NCBI GenBank assembly: GCA_945906305.1 | Contig: CAMDQT010000004.1 | Span: 1 to 64,000 of the forward strand | Direction of reading: 5' to 3' | DNA length: 64,000 nt | Source of the DNA: Ferrithrix thermotolerans DSM 19514 | Lineage (GTDB): Bacteria; Actinomycetota; Acidimicrobiia; Acidimicrobiales; CAIXPF01 | Shown here: positions 987-11,601 of the stretch, in pieces | How the letters are laid out: each line of letters starts with the position of its first letter | Position numbering within the stretch: position 1 is the first letter of the stretch | The notes under the pieces: model-generated | Told to the model about the DNA's origin: nothing | The model's database searches: none | What the model saw: only the letters and a program-made list of their open reading frames with translations | Made by a program: the position numbers and the translations under genes

Positions 987-1280
987 ACTTGGTCAGGCGT
1001 TCGCCGCGCCGTTGATGGGAACGGCGCTACGACTAGGGTCGAGGCACCAAGCGCCCTGTTCTCACCGTGGCGCCGTCCTGCCCTCATCGGGCATGTTGCA
1101 AAGGGTGAAGCCGCAGCTCAGAGCTGTGGCCGGATCGCCGAAGCAAGGATTCCGAAACGTGGTGCCGCCCGCCGGCAGCCGGGGCCGCGCCCCGTCGATC
1201 GCCGTGAACACGTCCATGACGACGGCCTGTCCGGCCACCGCACCGACCGGGAACCCGCCGCCGGAAGCTCGGAAACACAG
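987..1280. other. intergenic stretch before the RiPP operon
   Basis: This is about 300 bases without a convincing gene. A 93-codon plus-strand frame ending at 1293 and a minus-strand frame both cross it, but neither shows a recognisable domain or a good ribosome binding site. The likely promoter of the following operon lies at its end. Confidence 0.5.
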
Positions 1281-1286
1281 TAGGGT
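1281..1286 (+). promoter_or_regulatory. -10 element for leaderless ycaO transcript
   Basis: TAGGGT lies 6 nt before the ATG at 1293, placing the transcription start at or next to that ATG. No clear -35 element is seen. It would drive the whole RiPP operon. Confidence 0.5.
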
Positions 1287-1292
1287 CGGTTG

Positions 1293-2633
1293 ATGAAGTC
1301 CGGGGCCTCTTCGCTCGCCGAAGGGCCGCCAGGAGCGCCGCATGCGCCGGCGGCGGACGCCTCCCGCCTGCCCGGTCTGGCCCGGATCCTCGACCCCGCC
1401 GAGGTGGCCTCGGCCGGGTCGGTGACGCAGGACGTCTCCTCGTCGTCCCGGCCCGTCGATCCGGGCGCCATGCTGGAACGGGTCCTGCCCTACCTGGCCG
1501 ACTACGGCATCACCCGGGTTGCCGAGCTCACCCATCTCGACCGCCTGGCCCTGCCGGTGCACACCGCCTACAAGCCGATGGGCAGGTCGTTGTCGAGCGG
1601 GAGCGGCAAGGGCCTGACCGCCACCCAGAGCAAGCTCGGCGCGGTGATCGAGGCCATCGAGCAGACCTACTGGGAGCAGGCGTCCCTGCCGACGGTACGG
1701 GGGTCGCAGGACGATCTCGAACGCATGGGCCTCGTCGTGGCCGACGGGGCCGACCTGGTGAAGTACCGGGGAGCGATCTGGCATCCCGGCCTGTGTGTCG
1801 ACTGGACCCCGATGCACGACCTCGCCACCGGCGAGGAGGTGTGGGTCCCGGTCGATCTGGTCACGGTGCCCCGTCGTGGTGAGCGGCAAGGGATGGCCGG
1901 GGCGGTCGCCTTCATGTCCGGCACAAACGGGCTGGCCGGCGGCTACCATGTGGCCGACGCCCTCGTGGCCGCCGTCACTGAGGTGTTCGAGCGCGACGCC
2001 GTCACCATCGCCAAGCTCAGCCTCGTCGGCAGGGTCGATGCCCCCGGGCTGGTCGCCCGGGTCGGCGGCGATGTGGCGCCGTACGTGGCCTACCTCGAGT
2101 CCCGCCATCTGGAGCTGGGGCTGATCGACGCCACGAACGAGTCCGGCCTGCCCACGTACATCGCGTTGCTGTGGGATCTCGAGAACCGACGGGTGGGGAC
2201 CTTCGGCGGCTACGGCACCGGCTTCGACGAGCACCGGGCCCTGGTCCGGGCGATCACCGAGGCGGTGCAGTCCCGCGGCCTCATCACCGCCGGTGCCCGC
2301 GATGACGTGCTGGCCACCGAGCGCCGCGCCGCCCTGCGCCGCACCAGCAACGAGGCGCCGCCCAAGTCGTCGCAGACGCAGGCCCCGGTCCACCCCGTTC
2401 GTACTCCGGCCGACAGCATCACCGCGCTCGAGGAGCTGGTGGCCGCAGCGGCGCGCTGCGGCTGTGGCCGGGTGCTCGTGATGCGCCACAGCGCACCGGG
2501 GGATCCGGCCCAGGTCGTGCGTGCCGTCATCCCCGGCCTGGAGGGCTACCTGTTCCCGGGGTACGGACCGGGCCGCCGCGCCCGGGCGGCGATGGCAGCA
2601 GGTAACCGTGCGGCCGCGGCGGCCCAGCCGTGA
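1293..2633 (+). CDS. YcaO-family cyclodehydratase/thioamide synthetase
   Basis: A 446-residue protein with YcaO hallmarks: the ATP-binding stretch SLSSGSGKGLTATQSKLGA (Lys near residue 106) followed by EAIEQTYWE, a second acidic helix AAVTEVFERDA, and GYGTGFDEHRALVRAITEA before a QSR motif. YcaO proteins use ATP to activate peptide backbone amides, giving azolines or, with TfuA, thioamides. The C-terminus is Ala-rich and lacks the PxPxP tail of many azoline-forming members, which fits a thioamide role (inference). It overlaps the next gene, a TfuA protein, by GTGA. The ATG at 1293 is chosen over the TTG at 1290 because of the nearby -10 element. Confidence 0.95.
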   Translation: MKSGASSLAEGPPGAPHAPAADASRLPGLARILDPAEVASAGSVTQDVSSSSRPVDPGAMLERVLPYLADYGITRVAELTHLDRLALPVHTAYKPMGRSLSSGSGKGLTATQSKLGAVIEAIEQTYWEQASLPTVRGSQDDLERMGLVVADGADLVKYRGAIWHPGLCVDWTPMHDLATGEEVWVPVDLVTVPRRGERQGMAGAVAFMSGTNGLAGGYHVADALVAAVTEVFERDAVTIAKLSLVGRVDAPGLVARVGGDVAPYVAYLESRHLELGLIDATNESGLPTYIALLWDLENRRVGTFGGYGTGFDEHRALVRAITEAVQSRGLITAGARDDVLATERRAALRRTSNEAPPKSSQTQAPVHPVRTPADSITALEELVAAAARCGCGRVLVMRHSAPGDPAQVVRAVIPGLEGYLFPGYGPGRRARAAMAAGNRAAAAAQP

Positions 2634-4078
2634 ACGTCTACGGAGAACGACCCGACCTGGTGTTCCTGGGACCCAGCCTGTCGCACGATGAGGCCCGCCG
2701 GATCGCCCCCGATGCCGTGCTGTTGCCGCCGGCGGGGATGGGCGACGTCCTCACGGCACTCGAGCGGTTCCGGCCCCATGCCATCGCGCTGATCGACGGC
2801 AACTTCCTGCACACGATGGCCGTGTTCCACAAGGAGATCGTCGATGCCCTGGCCCGCGGGGTGTGGGTCATCGGGGCGTCGAGCATGGGGGCGTTGCGGG
2901 CTGCGGAGTGCGCACCGTACGGCATGATCCCGGTGGGGGAGATCGCCGCCGCCTACCTCAGCGGGGAACTTGAGGGCGACGACGAGGTGGCGCTGGTGCA
3001 CGCCGACGCCGATGACGGCTACCGGCCGCTGTCCGATGCCATGGTCGAGATCCGCGCCACCGTCCGCGCCGCCACCACAGCCGGGCTGCTCACCGCCGAG
3101 GAGGCCGACCGGCTGATCGCCGGTCAGAAGCGACGCTGGTTCCCGGAGCGGACACTGGCCGCTACCGTGGATGATGTCCGTGACCACCTCGGTTGGCCAG
3201 CGGAGCAGGTGGCGGCGTACCGGGCCTTCGTGCGGGCCAACCGGGTCGACCTCAAGAGCCGTGATGCCCGGGCGGCGTTGCAGGCGCTGGTCGAGCTCCC
3301 CGCCGGACCGGTGCCGGAGGCCGAGCGGCCCCTCCTGGAGTCCTCGGGCGTCTACCAGTTGATGGCGGCGCGCGACCGTTTCGTGGGCGATGGTCCCCCC
3401 GGCGTGCGCCTCGAGGACATTCGCACCCATGCCGCCCTGACCGACCGGGGGTACCTGACCGACTGGCGGCGCGCGGCACAGCGCGCGGCACTGCTCAACC
3501 TGTCGCAGTATCTCGACCTCGAGCCGCCGCCGGAGGCGACGGTCGCGGCCCGCCGGCGGGTCGCCCACGCCTTCGGCGTCGCTCCCGACGAGCTTGACGG
3601 GGAGGCCGCCGCGCTCGACCTCAGCCCGAACGGGCTCGAGGTGCTGCTGGGCGAAGAGGCACGGCTCGAGCAACTGGAACGGTGGGTCTTCGAGCTCGGC
3701 CGCGGGCACAGCGTCGACGTTGCCTACCACAACCTCATGCGCTTGCAGGGTCGGTACCGCAAGCTGCGCGCCGACGCCGAGGCGATCGAGAAGCTGGCGG
3801 CGGCGAGCGAGGAACGCGACATCGAGCCGCCGTTCCTGGTGGCCCTCAGCCAGCACATGGTCCTGAGCGGGTTCACCCTGCCCGTGTCGCTGGACGAGTT
3901 CGTCGCCGACAGCGGGTTCGGGACCCGGACCAAGCTGTACGACCGGTTGATGACCCATCTGGTGGCGGAGCGCGCCCTGCTCGGCATACCAGTCGGCATG
4001 GGCTTCGAGTTCGTCGATGACGACACGCCCGACATCGACCACGGGGCCGGCGAGATGAACGCACGCGGCGCCCGGTGA
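2630..4078 (+). CDS. TfuA-like protein, YcaO partner
   Basis: A 482-residue protein whose first ~210 residues are a TfuA core: FLGPSLSHDEAR at the N-terminus, then ALIDGNF and VIGASSMGALRAAEC. A helical C-terminal half of about 270 residues follows and is not recognised. TfuA proteins work with YcaO in peptide thioamidation, as known for thioviridamide-type RiPPs and for methyl-coenzyme M reductase. The GTG start overlaps the ycaO stop (GTGA), so the two are probably translationally coupled. It also overlaps the following gene by GTGA. Confidence 0.92.
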   Translation: MNVYGERPDLVFLGPSLSHDEARRIAPDAVLLPPAGMGDVLTALERFRPHAIALIDGNFLHTMAVFHKEIVDALARGVWVIGASSMGALRAAECAPYGMIPVGEIAAAYLSGELEGDDEVALVHADADDGYRPLSDAMVEIRATVRAATTAGLLTAEEADRLIAGQKRRWFPERTLAATVDDVRDHLGWPAEQVAAYRAFVRANRVDLKSRDARAALQALVELPAGPVPEAERPLLESSGVYQLMAARDRFVGDGPPGVRLEDIRTHAALTDRGYLTDWRRAAQRAALLNLSQYLDLEPPPEATVAARRRVAHAFGVAPDELDGEAAALDLSPNGLEVLLGEEARLEQLERWVFELGRGHSVDVAYHNLMRLQGRYRKLRADAEAIEKLAAASEERDIEPPFLVALSQHMVLSGFTLPVSLDEFVADSGFGTRTKLYDRLMTHLVAERALLGIPVGMGFEFVDDDTPDIDHGAGEMNARGAR

Positions 4079-4818
4079 ACGCCGCGCGCGCGACGCTCGA
4101 CGTGTCGGCCGGGCGTGTCACCCTGTACGCTCCCGGCCTGGGAACGGTCGGTGTCACCGCGGCCGAGGTCACCTGGCAGGAGACCGACGGTGCCGGGGCA
4201 GCCGAGCTCGTCGCCTGTCTCGGTGAATGGGCCTGGGGTCAGCAGCAGCTGCTGCGCGGCGTGACTGTCTGCCGGGGCACGGTGGTGGTCACCGCGTGGG
4301 GGGCGGTGCTGCTCGCCGCCATCAGCGGCTCGGGCGCGTCACTCACCGCGGCGCCGTTGGTCCTCGGGGGGGCGTCCGTCCTCGCCGACGGTGCCTGCCC
4401 GCTCGTCGTGGCCGACGGCACGGTGACGGCCCTGCCCGGGCGGTCCTCGCTCGAGCTTGACCCCGCCGTGGCTGCCTCCTGGCCGCACCCCGATGCCGTC
4501 ACCCCGCTGGGGTGTGGACGCCCGCGGGCGTTGGTCGAAGGGACGCCCGTGGCCGGGCCGACGGCGCTCACCGCAGTGGTACTGCTGCGCCGCGGGGGCG
4601 GGAGCGGCGACGCGCCGCTCGACCCGGGCCGCGCCGCGCACCTGCTGGCATGCTGCCTGGTGCCCTCGCTGGTGCATGCAGATCGAAACCATCGGGCCGC
4701 AGCGGCGCAGGCTATCGTCGCCGCCGTGCCTGTCGCCGAGGTCTCCGTCGCCGACCCGCCGCCGGCGGTCGCCCGGGCGGTGCTCGAGACGCTGGCAGCG
4801 CTCGGGGTCGCTCCGTGA
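4075..4818 (+). CDS. HPr-kinase-like protein with degenerate P-loop
   Basis: A 247-residue protein that resembles HPr kinase-related proteins found in some RiPP clusters. A beta-rich start leads to SGSGASLTAAP at residues 84-94, followed by a strand, ADGACPLV and a DGTV-LPG segment, in the order of the HprK fold. In active enzymes the loop reads GxSGSGKS/T, but here the Lys is Ala and the Asp-rich catalytic motif is also altered. It may therefore be a non-catalytic peptide-binding pseudokinase rather than a kinase (inference). It sits between TfuA and the sulfotransferase with GTGA overlaps on both sides. The family assignment is by eye and moderately certain. Confidence 0.5.
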   Translation: MNAARATLDVSAGRVTLYAPGLGTVGVTAAEVTWQETDGAGAAELVACLGEWAWGQQQLLRGVTVCRGTVVVTAWGAVLLAAISGSGASLTAAPLVLGGASVLADGACPLVVADGTVTALPGRSSLELDPAVAASWPHPDAVTPLGCGRPRALVEGTPVAGPTALTAVVLLRRGGGSGDAPLDPGRAAHLLACCLVPSLVHADRNHRAAAAQAIVAAVPVAEVSVADPPPAVARAVLETLAALGVAP

Positions 4819-5726
4819 GCGCGCCCCGGGTCACCGTGTGGCTCGCCGCCTATCCGAAGTCTGGCAACACCTGGGTACGGGCGTTGCTGTCGGCGGCGTA
4901 TCGGGGCCCCGGCTGGGGCTCCGAATGGCTGGGCTTGTACCAACCCGGCTCGCTTCGTACGTTGCACGATGGTCTCGGTCTGGCCGGCGCCCGCCTGTCG
5001 CGGCAGCAGCTGGCGCCGCTGCGCCGCCTGGCCGTGGAGCAGCTGCCTGCCGACGAGGAGGGGACCGTGCTGTGCAAGGTGCACGACGCCTTCCTGCCCG
5101 ACGCCGACGGCCACCCGCTGGCGAGGGTCCGCGGGATCAACCGCGCTATCTACGTGGTGCGCGATCCGCGTGACGTCGCCGTGTCCTATGCCCACCACTT
5201 CGCGGTCGACCACGCCACCGCCGTTGCGGTCATGGCCGCTGGGAACGACCTCGGCCGATCGCTCGCCCCGGGCCCGTCCACCGGTGCCGGCGGCGGCGAG
5301 GTGGGGGTGGACGTGGACGCCTATGCGGACAACTACCTCCTGCCCTTCTGGAGCCGGCACGTCACGTCGTGGTGCGACCAGGACGCGATGGACGTCCTGG
5401 TGGTGCGCTACGAAGACCTGCACCGGCGGCCGGCCGAGACGCTCGCCGCCATGCTCGACCTGCTCGAGGTGTCGAGGACCCCGTCGCAGATCGCCGACGC
5501 CGTCGAGGCCGCCTGCTTCGCCCGGTTGGCGTTCGCCGAGATCATTCATCCCTTCGCCGAGGCGGCGGCCCCCGACCGGGTGTTCTTCCGCCGCGGCGTT
5601 GTCGGTGGCTGGCGCGACGAGTTAGACCATGACCTGGCCCGGCGCATCGAACGCGATCACCACGCGGTGATGGCCCGATTCGGCTATCCGATCAACCCTG
5701 CCCTTCCCGAAGGACGAACCGCATGA
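4815..5726 (+). CDS. PAPS-dependent sulfotransferase
   Basis: A 303-residue protein with both PAPS-binding signatures of the Sulfotransfer_1 fold: YPKSGNTW at residues 13-20 (5'-phosphosulfate loop) and RDPRDVAVS at 116-124 (3'-phosphate site), then RYEDL further on. The enzyme would transfer sulfate from PAPS to a hydroxyl or amine. In this operon the simplest acceptor is the precursor peptide, whose core has two Thr and one Ser and no Tyr (inference). The GTG at 4815 is chosen because it overlaps the previous stop as GTGA. The gene ends in an ATGA overlap with the HlyD-like gene. Confidence 0.9.
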   Translation: MSAPRVTVWLAAYPKSGNTWVRALLSAAYRGPGWGSEWLGLYQPGSLRTLHDGLGLAGARLSRQQLAPLRRLAVEQLPADEEGTVLCKVHDAFLPDADGHPLARVRGINRAIYVVRDPRDVAVSYAHHFAVDHATAVAVMAAGNDLGRSLAPGPSTGAGGGEVGVDVDAYADNYLLPFWSRHVTSWCDQDAMDVLVVRYEDLHRRPAETLAAMLDLLEVSRTPSQIADAVEAACFARLAFAEIIHPFAEAAAPDRVFFRRGVVGGWRDELDHDLARRIERDHHAVMARFGYPINPALPEGRTA

Positions 5727-6516
5727 CCGCACCGACGACAGGCCCGCCCCCTCGTCCGGTGCCGCACCCGGCCCGTCGGCCGCGGCCCAGCGCCTCGAAG
5801 AGTCGATTTCGGTCACCCGGCCCGGTGCCTGGGTGGTCCTCGTCGCCGTCGGCGCTCTGATCGCGGTCGCCGTCGTCGTGGCCTTCGTTGTGCACGTGCC
5901 GAAGGTCGTCACCGTCCCGGCCACCGTCACCTTCCCCGGAGGGCGGATCACGGTGACGGCGCCGGTGCCGGGGACGGTGCAGGACGTCATGGTCGTGGCC
6001 GGTTCCGTGGTCGCCGCAGGCGGCGAGCTGGCAACGGTGCGGGGCGCCGACGGGACGGTGGTGACCGTCGTCGCTCCCGAGGCCGGGACGGTGTTGTCGG
6101 TTCCGGTCAACGTCGGGCAGGTGGTGGGTGCGGGTGAGGCCCTTGCGAAGATCTCCCGCTCGAAGGCCGGATTGGGGGTCTTGGTGGTGGCGTTTGTGGC
6201 TCCGGACCAGGCGCCCGATTTCGCCCCGGGCAGCAAGGTCGACGTGCTGCTGCGCGACGCGGCGGGAACCGGTACCGTCGAACGCGTCTCGCTGGTGCGC
6301 CTACCGCTCGAGGCGGTGGCCGAGGTGGTCGGCGGCGAGACGCTCGGTCAGGAGGTGTTCGAGCGGACCGATGGGGCACCCATCGCGGTCATCGTCTCGT
6401 TCGACGCCGCCGGCTCGGCCTCGGCTCCGGGAATACCTGAAGGTACGGCCGTGACCCTCCGGCGGGTGGTGTCCGATCCGACGTTGTGGAACGTCCTCCT
6501 CGCCGGGGGCCGCTGA
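5723..6516 (+). CDS. NHLM-type secretion (HlyD-like) protein, frameshifted near start
   Basis: The membrane-fusion-like partner of the two ABC exporters. The recognisable part has QRLEESISVTRPGAWV followed by a transmembrane helix (about 5827-5900) and two lipoyl-like halves, each a VxAPxxGTV segment. No long coiled coil is present, as expected without an outer membrane. The ATG at 5723 overlaps the sulfotransferase stop (ATGA), but its frame ends after about 45 codons. The homologous frame is one base off and has no ATG, GTG or TTG upstream of 5833. Restoring one C in the C-run at 5747-5751 joins the two into a single protein of about 264 residues. This is either a sequencing error or a real disabling mutation. 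Confidence 0.75.
5747..5751 (+). other. probable single-base deletion in C homopolymer
   Basis: Adding one C to this five-C run fuses the ATG at 5723 with the HlyD frame and gives a smooth Pro/Ser/Ala-rich N-terminus leading into the conserved region. Confidence 0.55.
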
Positions 6517-6517
6517 G

Positions 6518-7537
6518 ATGGCTGTCGTGGACAGCCCCCCGCTGGCGCCCCCGGAGCCCGGCCAGTTGCGGACCGGGCGCCGCGTCAAGGTTCCCACCGT
6601 GCTGCAGATGGAGATCGCCGACTGCGGCGCCGCCAGCCTGGGCATGATCCTCGCCCATCACGGCCGTTGGGCGACACTCGACGAGTTGCGCGAGGCGTGC
6701 GGGGTGTCGCGCGACGGCTCGAGCGCCATCGACATCATCTCCGCGGCCGACAACTTCGGGCTCGAGGCCGACGTCGGCATGGTCGCGGTCGGCGAGCTCG
6801 AAGGCCGGGCGATGCCCGCCATCGTCTGGTGGGACCGCCGCCACTTCCTGGTGCTCGAGGGCGCGACCGGCTCGCAGGTGTACCTCAACGACCCGGTCAA
6901 TGGGCGGCGCTCGATCACGGTCGAGCAGTTCGCCGGCCATTTCAGTGGTGCCGTGCTGTCGTTCACCCCGACCGAGAAGTTCCGCCCCGGCGGCGACCCG
7001 CCCCGCCTGCGCGGCGCGGTGACCCAACGCCTGGCCCACAGCCGCGCCGGCCTCGCGCTTGCCATCGCGGCCGGCACGCTGGCCGCGCTCCCCGTCTTGA
7101 CGTTGGCCCTGCTGTCGCAGCTGTTCGTTGACGCCGTGCTCGGCGACGGGGACCGCTCGCTCGGCCGGTGGATCGTGGTGGCAACGCTCGTCGCCGTGGT
7201 GAGCGAGGTGGTGCTGGTACGGGTGCAGTACCGCGCCCTGGCTGCGTTGCAGCACAAGCTCGCCATGGTGGGCACCGTGGGGTTGCTGGAACGCCTGCTG
7301 CGCCTTCCGCTCTCGGCGTACTTCCTGCGGGGGGCCGGTGATCTCGCCTCGCGCGCGACCGGCCCGGCGTCGTTGGCCCAGACCCTCAGCGGCCAGCTCG
7401 GTGCGGTGCTGGCGGGGTCGGCTTCGGTCGTGATCTACGCCGTCGCCATGGCGGTGCTCGAATGGCGTCTGGCCCTGATCGCGGTCGGGCTCGCCCTCGG
7501 CGCGCTTGTGGCCATGTGGCGCGGCATGCAGCGGTAG
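6518..7537 (+). CDS. C39 peptidase-ABC exporter, N-terminal half (ends at internal TAG)
   Basis: This half has a peptidase C39 domain (residues ~20-150) with Gln30, Cys36 in EIADCGAAS, His109 in RRHFLVLEG and Asp125 in NDPVNG, so the catalytic set is complete. The first transmembrane helices of the exporter follow. C39-ABC proteins of NHLM bacteriocin systems cut leaders after Gly-Gly and pump out the core peptide, which fits the GG at residues 58-59 of the precursor. The frame is interrupted by TAG at 7535-7537 in the loop after the fourth membrane helix and continues in the same frame. It starts 1 nt after the HlyD stop. Confidence 0.88.
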   Translation: MAVVDSPPLAPPEPGQLRTGRRVKVPTVLQMEIADCGAASLGMILAHHGRWATLDELREACGVSRDGSSAIDIISAADNFGLEADVGMVAVGELEGRAMPAIVWWDRRHFLVLEGATGSQVYLNDPVNGRRSITVEQFAGHFSGAVLSFTPTEKFRPGGDPPRLRGAVTQRLAHSRAGLALAIAAGTLAALPVLTLALLSQLFVDAVLGDGDRSLGRWIVVATLVAVVSEVVLVRVQYRALAALQHKLAMVGTVGLLERLLRLPLSAYFLRGAGDLASRATGPASLAQTLSGQLGAVLAGSASVVIYAVAMAVLEWRLALIAVGLALGALVAMWRGMQR

Positions 7538-7555
7538 CGCATCAACCAGGAGGCG

Positions 7556-8734
7556 GTGCTGCAGGCGCAGGGCGCCGCCCAGGGTGTCGCCGTGCGCACC
7601 ATCGGGGCCATCGAATCGGTGAAGGCCTCCGGTGCCACCAACGAGGCGTTCACCGGCTGGATCGAGAGGGTAGCGCAAGGCATCGACGCCCAGCGCCGCC
7701 TGGGCGGCATCGCCAGCGTGCTCGGCGTCGTGCCCGGTTTCGTCAACGCCTGCACCTCGGTGCTCGTGCTCGTGGTCGGGGCGATCCTCGTGTTCCACGG
7801 CAAGCTGAGCGTGGGTGGCCTGCTCGCCATCCAGATCCTCGCCGCCTCCCTGTCGGTCCCGGTGCAGCAGCTGCTGTCGAGCGCGGCCTCGATGCAGCAG
7901 GGTATGGCCCAGTTGCGGCGGATCGACGACATCATGGCCCATCCGGAGGACCCGCGTTTCGCGGAGGTCGGCGCCCGCCGTAGCGCGGCCGGGGGCGGCC
8001 GGCTGGAACTGCGGGCGGTCACCTTCGGCTACCGGCGCACTTCCATTCCCCTGATCCGTGAGGTGTCGCTCGAAATCGCCCCGGGCGGCTGGTTGGCGCT
8101 GGTCGGAGCGAGCGGGGCGGGCAAGACGACCATCGGCCGCCTGGCCTCGGGGTTGGCCACGCCGTGGCAGGGCGAGGTCCTCCTCGACGGGGTGCCGATC
8201 GTCGAATGGGACCGCGATGCGCTGGCGGCGACGCTGGCCGGTGTCGAACAGCAGGTGACCCTCTTCGCCGGTACGGTCCGCGACAACGTCGCCCTGTGGG
8301 ATCCCACGATCGATGACGAGCGCATCACGGCTGCGCTGGGCGACGCCGCCGTGCTCCGTGACGTGCTCGCCCGGCCCGGCGGCCTCGGCGCGCCGGTGCT
8401 TGACGGCGGACGCAATTTCAGCGGTGGCCAACGGCAGCGGATCGGCTTGGCCCGTGCACTGGTGCGCGACCCGCGGCTGCTGGTGCTCGATGAGGCGACC
8501 TCGGCGCTCGACCCGGTGACAGAGGTCGAGGTGATGCGGAACGTACGGCGGCGGGGGTGTTCGGTGTTGGTGATCGCCCACCGGTTGAGCACCGTGCGCG
8601 ACGCCGACGAGATCCTCTGTCTCGGCCGGGGCGGCCGGGTGCTCGAGCGGGGTACCCACGACGCGTTGCTGGCTGCCGGTGGTTGGTACGCCCAGTCGGT
8701 GTCGGCCTCAGGGGACGGTGGTGTCGGTGTCTGA
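7556..8734 (+). CDS. C39 peptidase-ABC exporter, C-terminal half (TMD end plus ATPase)
   Basis: This continues the preceding gene in the same frame after the TAG. It begins with the conserved loop INQEAVLQAQG (partly before the GTG used here), then the last membrane helices and a full ATPase domain: Walker A GASGAGKTT, signature NFSGGQRQR, Walker B LLVLDEATSALD and the switch His in VIAHRLS. An AGGAGG sequence at 7548-7553 lies just before the GTG at 7556, so reinitiation as a separate polypeptide is conceivable, although spacing is short. Without reinitiation or readthrough the exporter would lack its motor. Confidence 0.85.
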   Translation: MLQAQGAAQGVAVRTIGAIESVKASGATNEAFTGWIERVAQGIDAQRRLGGIASVLGVVPGFVNACTSVLVLVVGAILVFHGKLSVGGLLAIQILAASLSVPVQQLLSSAASMQQGMAQLRRIDDIMAHPEDPRFAEVGARRSAAGGGRLELRAVTFGYRRTSIPLIREVSLEIAPGGWLALVGASGAGKTTIGRLASGLATPWQGEVLLDGVPIVEWDRDALAATLAGVEQQVTLFAGTVRDNVALWDPTIDDERITAALGDAAVLRDVLARPGGLGAPVLDGGRNFSGGQRQRIGLARALVRDPRLLVLDEATSALDPVTEVEVMRNVRRRGCSVLVIAHRLSTVRDADEILCLGRGGRVLERGTHDALLAAGGWYAQSVSASGDGGVGV

Positions 8735-10931
8735 GCAACACCACGACCGGCTCGACGACGCCGTGTGGGCGGCGCGCACCGAAGCCACCCGTTCGGCCCA
8801 GAGCGACCGCCTGGAAGCGGCGTACCGCCGGGCCGAGCTCGTCGGCGATGCGGGGGGCCGGCGCCGCGTCGGCGCCGATGCCGGGTCGACGGCGCTGCAA
8901 CGGGTCGTCGCGGTCCTCGCCGCCGCCACCGCCGCGACGTCGCCCCCGCGCGGCAGCGGCGGCGGGCGGGGTGACGATCAGGCGACGGTGCTGGCCGAGG
9001 CCGGGCTGCGGGCGCGCTCGGTCGAGTTGCGTGCGGACTGGTACCGCCGCCCGGCGCTGGGCATGCTCGGCACCGTCGACGGCAGACCCGTGGCCTTGAT
9101 GCCGACCCGGCGGGGCTACGACCTCGTCGAGGACGACGGCCGGCGGACCCCGGTCACCGCGACGGTCGCCGCCGCCCTCGGCGGCCGGGCAGACGAGGTG
9201 TACGCGCAGCTGCCCGAGGACCGGGCGGTCGGAGTCCGTGACCTGCTGCGCGTGGCCCTCGCAGGCGAACGCCACGGCGCGGCCCTGGTGATCGGTTGCG
9301 CGGTCGTCGCCGCTGCGCTCGGCCTGCTCACCCCGTCGGTCACTGGCTGGGTGCTGGGCACGCTGATGCCGCTCGGCCGCGACGGGCTGATGGCGGCCAC
9401 GGGTGCGGTACTCGTCGCCTCGGCCGCGACCTCTGCGGTGCTGCTTTTGGTGCAGCAGCGGGCGTTGAGCGGTATCGAGCAGGCGGCCCAGGTACGCGCC
9501 CAGGTCGCGGTGTGGGACCGGGTGCTGGCTATGCCGGCGCCCTTCTTCCGCCGGTTCAGCCCCGGCGACCTGTCGGTACGGGTTAGCGCCGCGCAGCAGC
9601 TTGCCGGGGTGATCGGGGCGAGCCTGGTGTCGCAGGTGCTGGCCGCGACGCTGTCGCTGAGCAGCATCGTCATCATGCTGCGCTACGACCTGACGCTGGG
9701 CCTGATCGGGGCGGCGATGCTGGTGGTGACGGTGACGGGGCTCGGGTTGGTCCTGCGTCGGGCGCAGCCGCTGGCCATGGCCATGACGGCCAGCCTGCTC
9801 GAGGTGAACGCTCGGTCGGTAGAGACGATCATCGGTGCGACCACCATCCGCGATGCGTCCGCCGAACCCCGGGCACTGGCCCGGATGCTCGACCGGGTCA
9901 TCGACTACGTCACCTCGCAGGCCGAGATGACCCGCTTACAGGGCCTGTTCGCGGCCACCGTGGCGGCCGGCTCGGCGCTGACCTCGGCGTTGCTGTTCCT
10001 GGCGGTCATCACGCTGGGCTGGGGACCGCACGGGGTGTCGCTGTCGTCCGCCGACTACCTCGGTGTCACGTCGTCGTTCGGGACGGCCTACGCCGGGCTG
10101 ACCGCGCTTGTCGTGGCGGTGTTCCCGTTGATGACCGTGCGGCCCCTGCTGCTAATGGCCGCTCCGATCCTCGAGTCCCTACCCGAGCGCACGGTGGGGC
10201 GGGAGGCGTGGGTGCCCGCCGGCGCCCTGGAACTGCGGCATGTCACGTTCCGCTACTCGCCGGACAGCCCCGACGTGTTGCACGACGTCAGCCTCCGCAT
10301 CGAACCGGGTGCGTTCGTGGCGCTCGTGGGCCCTTCCGGCTCGGGCAAGTCGACGGTGTTGCGGCTCCTGCTCGGTTTCGAGACGCCCGACGAGGGGCAG
10401 GTGCTCGTCGACGGCCGTGCACTCGCCGATCTCGACCCGCAGGTGTTGCGCTCCGAGATGGGAGCGGTGACCCAGGACGCCGTTCTGCTCGGGTCCTCGA
10501 TCCGCACTACGGTCGCCGGTGGTCGCGCCCTCGACGACGACACCGTCTGGGGCGCCCTGGAGCGTGCCGCGGTGGCCGACGACGTGCGGGCCATGCCGAT
10601 GCAGCTCGAGACGTTGGTGACCCAAGCGACGGTGAGCGGCGGCCAGCAACAACGGCTGCTGCTGGCGCGGGCGTTGGCCCGCTCGGTCCGCCTCGTCCTG
10701 CTCGACGAGGCCACCAGTGCCATGGACGACCTTAGCCAGGCCGCGGTGATGGCGTCGCTCGACGCCATGGAGGCCACCCGGGTCGTGGTCGCCCATCGGC
10801 TCAGCACGGTTCGTGCTGCCGACCGCATCGTCGTGGTCGAGGACGGCCGGATCGTGCAGGACGGCACCTACGACGAGCTCGTCGTCCGTGACGGTCTGTT
10901 CGCCCGGCTGGTGGCGCGGCAGCTGGCATGA
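8721..10931 (+). CDS. NHLM-type ABC exporter, ATP-binding/permease protein
   Basis: A protein of about 736 residues that starts with a soluble extension of ~180 residues and lacks a C39 peptidase. A membrane domain (~180-490) and an ATPase domain follow, with Walker A GPSGSGKST near residues 537-545, TVSGGQQQR and LVLLDEATSAMDD. This matches the second transporter that accompanies C39-ABC proteins in NHLM systems. GTG codons at 8718, 8721 and 8727 are possible starts; all overlap the previous stop (8732-8734), and AGGGGA at 8710-8715 favours 8721 or 8727. It probably pairs with the peptidase-ABC protein. Confidence 0.9.
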   Translation: MSVSEQHHDRLDDAVWAARTEATRSAQSDRLEAAYRRAELVGDAGGRRRVGADAGSTALQRVVAVLAAATAATSPPRGSGGGRGDDQATVLAEAGLRARSVELRADWYRRPALGMLGTVDGRPVALMPTRRGYDLVEDDGRRTPVTATVAAALGGRADEVYAQLPEDRAVGVRDLLRVALAGERHGAALVIGCAVVAAALGLLTPSVTGWVLGTLMPLGRDGLMAATGAVLVASAATSAVLLLVQQRALSGIEQAAQVRAQVAVWDRVLAMPAPFFRRFSPGDLSVRVSAAQQLAGVIGASLVSQVLAATLSLSSIVIMLRYDLTLGLIGAAMLVVTVTGLGLVLRRAQPLAMAMTASLLEVNARSVETIIGATTIRDASAEPRALARMLDRVIDYVTSQAEMTRLQGLFAATVAAGSALTSALLFLAVITLGWGPHGVSLSSADYLGVTSSFGTAYAGLTALVVAVFPLMTVRPLLLMAAPILESLPERTVGREAWVPAGALELRHVTFRYSPDSPDVLHDVSLRIEPGAFVALVGPSGSGKSTVLRLLLGFETPDEGQVLVDGRALADLDPQVLRSEMGAVTQDAVLLGSSIRTTVAGGRALDDDTVWGALERAAVADDVRAMPMQLETLVTQATVSGGQQQRLLLARALARSVRLVLLDEATSAMDDLSQAAVMASLDAMEATRVVVAHRLSTVRAADRIVVVEDGRIVQDGTYDELVVRDGLFARLVARQLA

Positions 10932-10935
10932 GGTC

Positions 10936-10951
10936 TCGGCGGGCTCGCCGA
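10936..10951 (+). other. small hairpin between exporter and precursor genes
   Basis: TCGGCG and CGCCGA form a 6-bp stem with a GGCT tetraloop just after the exporter stop. It could be a weak terminator or an RNA-processing site that sets precursor mRNA apart from the long operon. No U-tract follows. Confidence 0.35.
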
Positions 10952-10994
10952 TCAGTTCCCCTACCCAATCCAAACATGATGAAAGGTGAATTAC

Positions 10995-11240
10995 ATGACT
11001 TTGAACCCTGTGATCGCGTTGATCAAGGACGATCCGGACATGATGCATCGGCTGATTGATGCGGGTTCCCGTGAGGAGCGCGCCGCGATCCTCACGGAGC
11101 TCGGGGTGGCCCTCCCCGAGGCCGAGCACGCGAAGGCGAAGTGGACCGAGCTGATGGCCATCAGCGGGGGCGCAGGGACCGCTACGGGCATTGCCGTGGG
11201 CCAGGGGGCGGCCTCGGCGGCGGCCGCGGCCGCCGTCTGA
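10995..11240 (+). CDS. RiPP precursor peptide (Nif11/NHLP-like leader, Ala-rich core)
   Basis: An 81-residue peptide. Residues 1-59 form an acidic helical leader resembling Nif11-like leaders (a DDPDMMHRLIDAG helix, then REERAAILTELGVALPEAE) and end in ISGG. The predicted core after Gly59 has 22 residues: 11 Ala, 4 Gly, 2 Val, 2 Thr, 1 Ile, 1 Gln and 1 Ser, with six Ala in a row before the final Val81. It has no Cys, Tyr or Lys. The ATG at 10995 is chosen because GAAAGGTG at 10981-10988 sits 6 nt upstream, a stronger ribosome site than elsewhere in the operon. It is last in the operon, 63 nt after the second exporter gene and directly before a strong hairpin. Confidence 0.85.
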   Translation: MTLNPVIALIKDDPDMMHRLIDAGSREERAAILTELGVALPEAEHAKAKWTELMAISGGAGTATGIAVGQGAASAAAAAAV

Positions 11241-11241
11241 G

Positions 11242-11291
11242 GGTGAAAGCCGCGTGACCGGTGCCTCGGCGCGGTCATCTTCGCTTTCACC
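11242..11291 (+). terminator. nested stem-loop after the precursor gene
   Basis: A perfect 9-bp outer stem (GGTGAAAGC with GCTTTCACC) and a 6-bp inner stem (TGACCG with CGGTCA) begin one base after the precursor stop. There is no U-tract, so it may terminate as a U-less hairpin or protect the precursor mRNA 3' end. Confidence 0.6.
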
Positions 11292-11601
11292 GCACTGCGG
11301 GTGACGACACCCCATCGAGCGGGTGTGGACCAGCCCATCATCGGGATGGGTTACCCGTCGGAGGGTGCGGATCCGTCGTTGGTGTGATGCCGGTGGATTG
11401 TGGTGGGGCGGTGGCGTCGGTGGCGCCGCCGCCCTGCGGCCTTTTCCGCGCTGCCGGGTCCAGACCCGGCCCAGCGGTCCCCGAGCCCGGTTCCAAGCCC
11501 GGAACACGGCTCCGGTAGGCTCTGCGCCGACAACGGCAGCGTTACTGAACCACTGGACCGGGTTAGCGACCGGCTTCGCGACACGGTTCGCAACATGCCC
11601 T
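11292..11601. other. intergenic stretch with a second hairpin
   Basis: No gene is seen here. An 8-bp stem with a 5-nt loop lies at 11332-11352 (AGCCCATC with GATGGGTT, one G-T pair). The rest is GC-rich with short inverted repeats of CCCGG type. Confidence 0.5.

Follow-up and report, generated by a model that had tools for sequence, protein, structure and literature searches.

Among ribosomally synthesised and post-translationally modified peptides (RiPPs), the characterised YcaO-TfuA products comprise the thioviridamide-like peptides, thiovarsolins, thioamidated thiopeptides, chimeric lanthipeptides and std (PMC13174530), and thioamidation by YcaO-TfuA is supported for other pairs than the one described here (PMC8120280, PMC13174530). 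The 64,000-nucleotide stretch of Ferrithrix thermotolerans DSM 19514 analysed here (contig CAMDQT010000004.1, hereafter the window) carries an operon on the plus strand at about 1293-11240 with genes for YcaO, TfuA, an HprK-like protein, a sulfotransferase, HlyD, a C39-ABC exporter, a second ABC exporter and an 81-residue precursor, in that order. It shares the adjacent YcaO and TfuA genes and a precursor peptide with the characterised systems, and differs from them by a Nif11-like leader, C39/NHLM export, the sulfotransferase, the HprK-like pseudokinase and a core without Cys. We interpret the locus as a RiPP operon that represents a new form of the YcaO-TfuA (thioamide-type) clusters, with a product that is probably also sulfated on Thr or Ser, and assign this interpretation a probability of roughly 0.58. 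Its membership in a RiPP cluster family as such is well supported.

Each part of the operon has a described counterpart. A Nif11-related precursor has been shown with YcaO-TfuA (PMC8120280). The NHLM/Nif11 export clusters of Haft 2010 have the same NHLM HlyD, C39-ABC1 and ABC2 components and a leader with a GG site, but use azoline or lanthionine enzymes, and neither TfuA nor a sulfotransferase is mentioned in that paper (PMC2887384). The initial annotation placed a sulfotransferase and a degenerate HprK-like protein outside the thioviridamide-type clusters. None of the characterised peptide classes in a May 2026 preprint is sulfated (PMC13174530). A sulfotransferase by YcaO-TfuA is nevertheless not without precedent, as the mycobacterial YcaO-TfuA clusters of RiPPER network 1 likewise have one nearby (PMC6511847). 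The latter differ in their type III polyketide synthase and in the absence of NHLM terms from the main text of that paper. Sulfotransferases in lasso clusters and tailoring by HPr kinases are also known (PMC8498205), and the pairing of an HprK-like protein with a sulfotransferase as tailoring genes is found in three lasso-type loci of the same order; the window operon, however, lacks an asparagine-synthase-like cyclase and a transglutaminase-like B protease, and its kinase is degenerate. The sulfotyrosine lanthipeptides of SscST/SslST, as they are cited in PMC12135136, provide a sulfotransferase in a bacterial RiPP pathway with Tyr as the sulfated residue, in contrast to the window, where the core is free of Tyr and a lanthionine synthase is lacking. 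The open-access papers searched include none that joins a sulfotransferase, NHLM and RiPP, and the combination with NHLM export, a pseudokinase and a repeated sulfotransferase association appears to be undescribed there.

Related clusters and their sulfotransferases

TfuA proteins like that of the window are rare: a single-protein search of 395 genomes from the class found them in 6, a profile search of 397 genomes from the order in 11, and a search of 396 genomes from the phylum in 3, source genome included. The complete set recurs in the same gene order, with two precursors upstream, in a genome of another family of the order (G396), which implies that the gene set of the window is not due to chance. 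As the sequence identities between the two are 26-41% while the whole set is kept, the gene set has been conserved over a long divergence. The window precursor aligns with both precursors of this locus (L009), and further members of the precursor family, as defined by a hidden Markov model, occur in L027, L029, L030, L031 and L010. Gene content, order and strand as given by the initial annotation are confirmed by domain searches, and both of the checks it proposed, for precursor homologues beside the same genes and for retention of the sulfotransferase and TfuA in related clusters, turned out in its favour in G396.

The window falls into a single clade with G396 and G558 in the trees of both YcaO and TfuA (support 100/99), with G558 possessing only YcaO, TfuA and a Nif11-like open reading frame nearby. 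A sister clade of G508, G547, G438, G290 and G509 has YcaO-TfuA beside a sulfotransferase of a different family, Sulfotransfer_3. In G508, G547 and G438 this sulfotransferase (E 3e-21 to 2e-12) accompanies YcaO-TfuA, related precursors and NHLM export, and G509 has YcaO-TfuA and the sulfotransferase. The sulfotransferase of G290 is cut by TfuA at the end of contig C6; its remainder opens contig C21, which carries a precursor and NHLM genes, and we infer that the two contigs are linked. A further genome, G490, combines YcaO-TfuA with an HprK-like gene and a sulfotransferase of the window type, and has no NHLM genes on its contig. The two families point to separate recruitments of a sulfotransferase to the same pathway. 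The recurrence of the same functions with a different sulfotransferase family strengthens the case for sulfation.

The association is also evident from counts. Strong NHLM_ABC1 loci with TfuA on the same contig have an adjacent sulfotransferase in 5/5 cases (window, G396, G508, G438, G547), or 6/6 if G290 is included, compared with none on the contig for the 21 NHLM loci without TfuA in the order (genome-wide PF13469 and PF00685 searches). Under random labels the probability of 6/6 versus 0/21 is about 3e-6, a hand count that ignores shared ancestry and short contigs; a first count of 6/6 versus 0/18 gave 7e-6. The sulfotransferase consequently tracks YcaO-TfuA in the NHLM-exported branch, and not NHLM as such.

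Searches of the families of G396 and G508 revealed no further clusters, and a sequence scan with the window TfuA alone retrieved only an Agrobacterium locus, this single-protein pattern being too narrow. TfuA on plasmids belongs mostly to rhizobial, Azospirillum and Streptomyces clusters, and in three such plasmid clusters no annotated sulfotransferase lies within 9 kb. In a member of the phylum from beyond the order, with a 7 Mb genome on a single contig, YcaO-TfuA lies by NHLM ABC genes and open reading frames with NHLP-type leaders (VAGG, core VSSEVDVNIVVIAIVI), without a sulfotransferase (L072 8329-18999). Other YcaO genes are located near NHLM loci without TfuA (L080 3000-5351, L100 13274-15760).

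Layout and state of the window copy

The features of the operon, all on the plus strand, are as follows.

1293..2633, plus: YcaO, ATP-dependent amide activation, start at TTG 1290 or ATG 1293 (PF02624, E 1.4e-49)
2630..4078, plus: TfuA, 482 residues, TfuA domain and a helical C-terminal extension of about 230 residues (PF07812, E 6e-40)
4075..4818, plus: HprK-like pseudokinase (NCBIfam, E 0.087; fold model)
4815..5726, plus: cytosolic-type sulfotransferase (Sulfotransfer_1, PF00685, E 5e-23; also in the genome-wide PF00685 search)
5723..6516, plus: HlyD/NHLM adaptor (HlyD_3, E 1.6e-14; NHLM_micro_HlyD, E 1e-13)
6518..8734, plus: C39-peptidase ABC exporter, NHLM_ABC1 (two pieces, E 4e-89 and 9e-132)
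7535..7537, plus: premature in-frame TAG inside the C39-ABC gene (frame translation; independent genome search)
8721..10931, plus: second ABC exporter, NHLM_ABC2 (TIGR03797, E 1e-172)
10995..11240, plus: precursor peptide of 81 residues with Nif11-like leader, GG site and core AGTATGIAVGQGAASAAAAAAV (ATG 10995, ribosome-binding-like motif AAAGGTG)
11241..11295, plus: strong hairpin directly 3' of the precursor, without T-run (RNA fold -36.1 kcal/mol, z -2.66)

NHLM HlyD, ABC1 (C39) and ABC2 were all detected, with scores below the NCBIfam equivalog cut-offs. The 4-nt overlaps by which the initial annotation had all genes joined are present at four of the seven junctions (YcaO/TfuA, TfuA/HprK, HprK/sulfotransferase and sulfotransferase/ATG 5723) and absent from the other three: HlyD and ABC1 are separated by 1 nt, ABC1 and ABC2 share 8-14 nt, and a gap of 54-63 nt lies between ABC2 and the precursor. 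The promoter-like element it had proposed finds no support, as no sigma-70-like promoter was found upstream of the operon. The hairpin is a candidate mRNA end or stabiliser; apart from tRNA, no Rfam family was found.

The HlyD-like and C39-ABC genes of the initial annotation are present, but two apparent lesions in them had been overlooked. The in-frame TAG, which occurs in 0/30 other family matches in the order, leaves the C39 domain with a portion of the membrane domain in the first piece and the ATPase behind the stop. The body of HlyD lies in a frame (5725/5833) different from that of ATG 5723, with no ATG, GTG or TTG before GTG 5833, so that the reading frames point to a frameshift of 1 nt or, alternatively, to a late start at GTG 5833. 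Both genes are intact in G396, and the remaining genes of the window look whole, as judged from G+C at third codon positions and frame. The source assembly is a draft of 52 contigs (98% complete) in which base errors are possible, and both lesions may be real mutations or assembly errors. As the exporter looks disrupted, export may have been lost in the source genome, or the sequence carries errors.

The cluster (window 987-11463) lies between a permease gene and a tRNA-Arg(CCT) and has a G+C content of 72-73%, compared with about 66% around it. Between the same permease and tRNA-Arg, a congener (G003) has about 0.86 kb with a different gene of about 0.5 kb in place of the 10.5 kb cluster, and searches of the five other genomes in the family gave no TfuA. 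We interpret these three observations as an indication of a locally variable, probably acquired island. The chance that the copy in the source genome is a decaying relic with broken export genes, from which nothing is released while live versions persist in relatives, is only slightly below even: the TAG in ABC1 and the frame break in HlyD fall within 1.8 kb, and the cluster is missing at the same site in the congener. This is countered by the intactness of all other genes, including those for the precursor and both modifying steps, and by the base errors that a 52-contig draft can contain. Decay would concern only the copy in the window, and does not conflict with a thioamide-type, probably sulfated RiPP as the best explanation for the family.

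Core peptide and predicted modifications

A Nif11-like pattern is common to the leaders, whose last two residues are GG (in G396, GA); the match of the window leader to Nif11 is weak (E 0.14), and the related precursors of the sister clade have clear VAGG sites. The window core is rich in Ala, Gly and Val and contains neither Cys nor Tyr. Thioviridamide also has an Ala-rich core. Cores of clusters with a sulfotransferase lack Cys and mostly lack Tyr (the G290 core is VGTATGVGVTLAATVVAAAAFI). The Cys-terminated core that carries the AviCys-type ring of thioviridamide-like peptides (thioamitides) is not present, and the operon has no decarboxylase or dehydration genes. Additional Nif11-leader precursors with Ala/Val/Thr-rich cores lie near NHLM loci in G290 and G509 (L076 16622-16918, L077 473-832, L075 13227-13550), which suggests that one YcaO-TfuA-sulfotransferase set may serve many precursors. 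At L032 1705-7267, in G490, YcaO-TfuA is accompanied by a 72-residue open reading frame ending in KGG-VEAPWTTWRLTS, an HprK-like pseudokinase and, on the opposite strand, a Sulfotransfer_1 gene, without NHLM on the contig.

Several points weigh against the proposed thioamidated and sulfated product. Both modifications are predictions, and the premature TAG and frame break possibly render the window copy non-functional. In G1012, which belongs to the phylum but not to the order, YcaO-TfuA occurs together with NHLM while 19 kb contain no sulfotransferase, and within the order YcaO-TfuA occurs without one in G204, G331 and G558, and at a second locus of G438 at a contig edge; the sulfotransferase is therefore not obligatory. 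An [ST]xT stretch within 11 residues of the cleavage site was present in 8/8 tested cores with a sulfotransferase and in 0/4 cores without, but this motif was chosen post hoc and the cores are related, which makes any p value optimistic, and its link to the sulfotransferase is to be treated as a hypothesis. The candidate core of G490 lacks the motif.

The sulfotransferase of the window has intact motifs for binding 3'-phosphoadenosine 5'-phosphosulfate (PAPS), namely YPKSGNTW, KVH, RDPRDVAVS and FFRRGVVGGW in alignment with solved SULT chains and the relatives in L009 and lasso-type loci. The 5'-phosphosulfate-binding loop, KxH, 3'-phosphate-binding and RxG motifs of a PAPS-dependent sulfotransferase are thus all present. 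It is conceivable, if quite doubtful, that the enzyme leaves no sulfate and instead activates a Ser/Thr hydroxyl, with loss of the O-sulfo group by elimination or cyclisation and a dehydro residue or ring in the thioamide peptide, similar to kinase-lyase dehydration. The Thr/Ser kept in the [ST]xT stretch and the descent of the pseudokinase from kinases would fit such a route, but the operon lacks a lyase or cyclase gene, and sulfotransferases usually leave stable sulfates. A sulfated Ser or Thr, if true, would be unusual for a bacterial RiPP.

The evidence for thioamidation comes from both members of the adjacent pair, arranged as in YcaO-TfuA thioamide RiPPs. The nearest solved chain to the window YcaO is the archaeal MJ1094 (6pe3/6peu, E 1e-11), ahead of the azoline enzymes. 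The nearest NCBIfam of TfuA is the TfuA-related McrA-glycine thioamidation protein (E 3e-53, under the family cut-off), and residues 7-227 of its model (pLDDT 81) match 6xp8, the Methanosarcina thioamidation TfuA, with Foldseek E 1.7e-13, Z 27.2, a root-mean-square deviation of 2.0 and 31% identity. The C-terminal half (residues about 230-455) is helical and common to the long TfuAs of the order; no trustworthy structural match was found for it, only a weak SurA-like hint. Formation of (methyl)oxazolines from Ser/Thr instead of thioamides appears distinctly unlikely: the YcaO family also holds azoline-forming enzymes, with TruD and MusD next among the solved chains, but the partner is TfuA instead of an E1-like/ThiF protein, a dehydrogenase is missing, the core lacks Cys, and the closest matches of both proteins are those to MJ1094 and the thioamidation TfuA.

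Sequence alone assigns the HprK-like protein weakly (NCBIfam E 0.087). The assignment is supported by a homologue that matches Hpr_kinase_C with E 3e-5 and by the fold, as the model (pLDDT 86, pTM 0.85) matches HprK/P in Foldseek (E 1.2e-5, probability 1.0). Missing from the protein are the Lys of the P-loop and the second Asp of the DD motif, so that the motifs of a functional HPr kinase are incomplete and the degeneracy noted in the initial annotation is real. The same residues are missing in the homologues of G396 (L009) and G490 (L032). An active kinase, with a product also phosphorylated as in paeninodin-type lasso peptides, is very unlikely given these losses in 3/3 TfuA-linked members, despite the HprK fold and the relatives beside the same sulfotransferase type in lasso-type loci of G409 and G100 (L118, L116), which keep GxxxxGK[ST].

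For the thioamide-type, sulfated product we envisage the following pathway. The leader of the 81-residue precursor would be bound, with the helical extension of TfuA or the HprK-like pseudokinase as candidate binders. YcaO with ATP, and TfuA delivering sulfur, would convert one or more core amides into thioamides, a step suggested by the presence of the YcaO-TfuA pair and by its resemblance to thioamidating enzymes of archaea. Sulfate would be moved from PAPS by the sulfotransferase to a Thr or Ser in the [ST]xT stretch early in the Tyr-free core, and the HprK-like protein, which has kept the kinase fold and lost the ATP-binding residues, probably presents the peptide to the sulfotransferase. 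The C39 domain would cleave after GG, the ABC1/ABC2/HlyD exporter would release the peptide, and the product is probably a membrane-active bacteriocin.

The HprK-sulfotransferase pairs of L118 (1361-3231), L117 (9481-11588) and L116 (2-2077) adjoin asparagine-synthase genes in lasso-type loci of the same order. In L117 (G198) the HprK-like protein is degenerate as well. More than one RiPP type thus seems to draw on this pair as a tailoring cassette. In a more far-reaching view, which we put forward tentatively and hold to be possible rather than probable, these clusters would constitute an actinobacterial RiPP class marked by both backbone thioamides and O-sulfo-Thr/Ser. The sulfotransferase of this class would receive the peptide from a dead HprK-type pseudokinase, the cassette of these two proteins would be common to lasso clusters, and the sister thioamide clade would have gained a different sulfotransferase independently. 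As YcaO-TfuA is found repeatedly with one or other of two sulfotransferase families, and the cassette also occurs in lasso-type loci, the predicted modifications are open to a direct test. In L116 the HprK-like protein and the sulfotransferase are encoded in one open frame.

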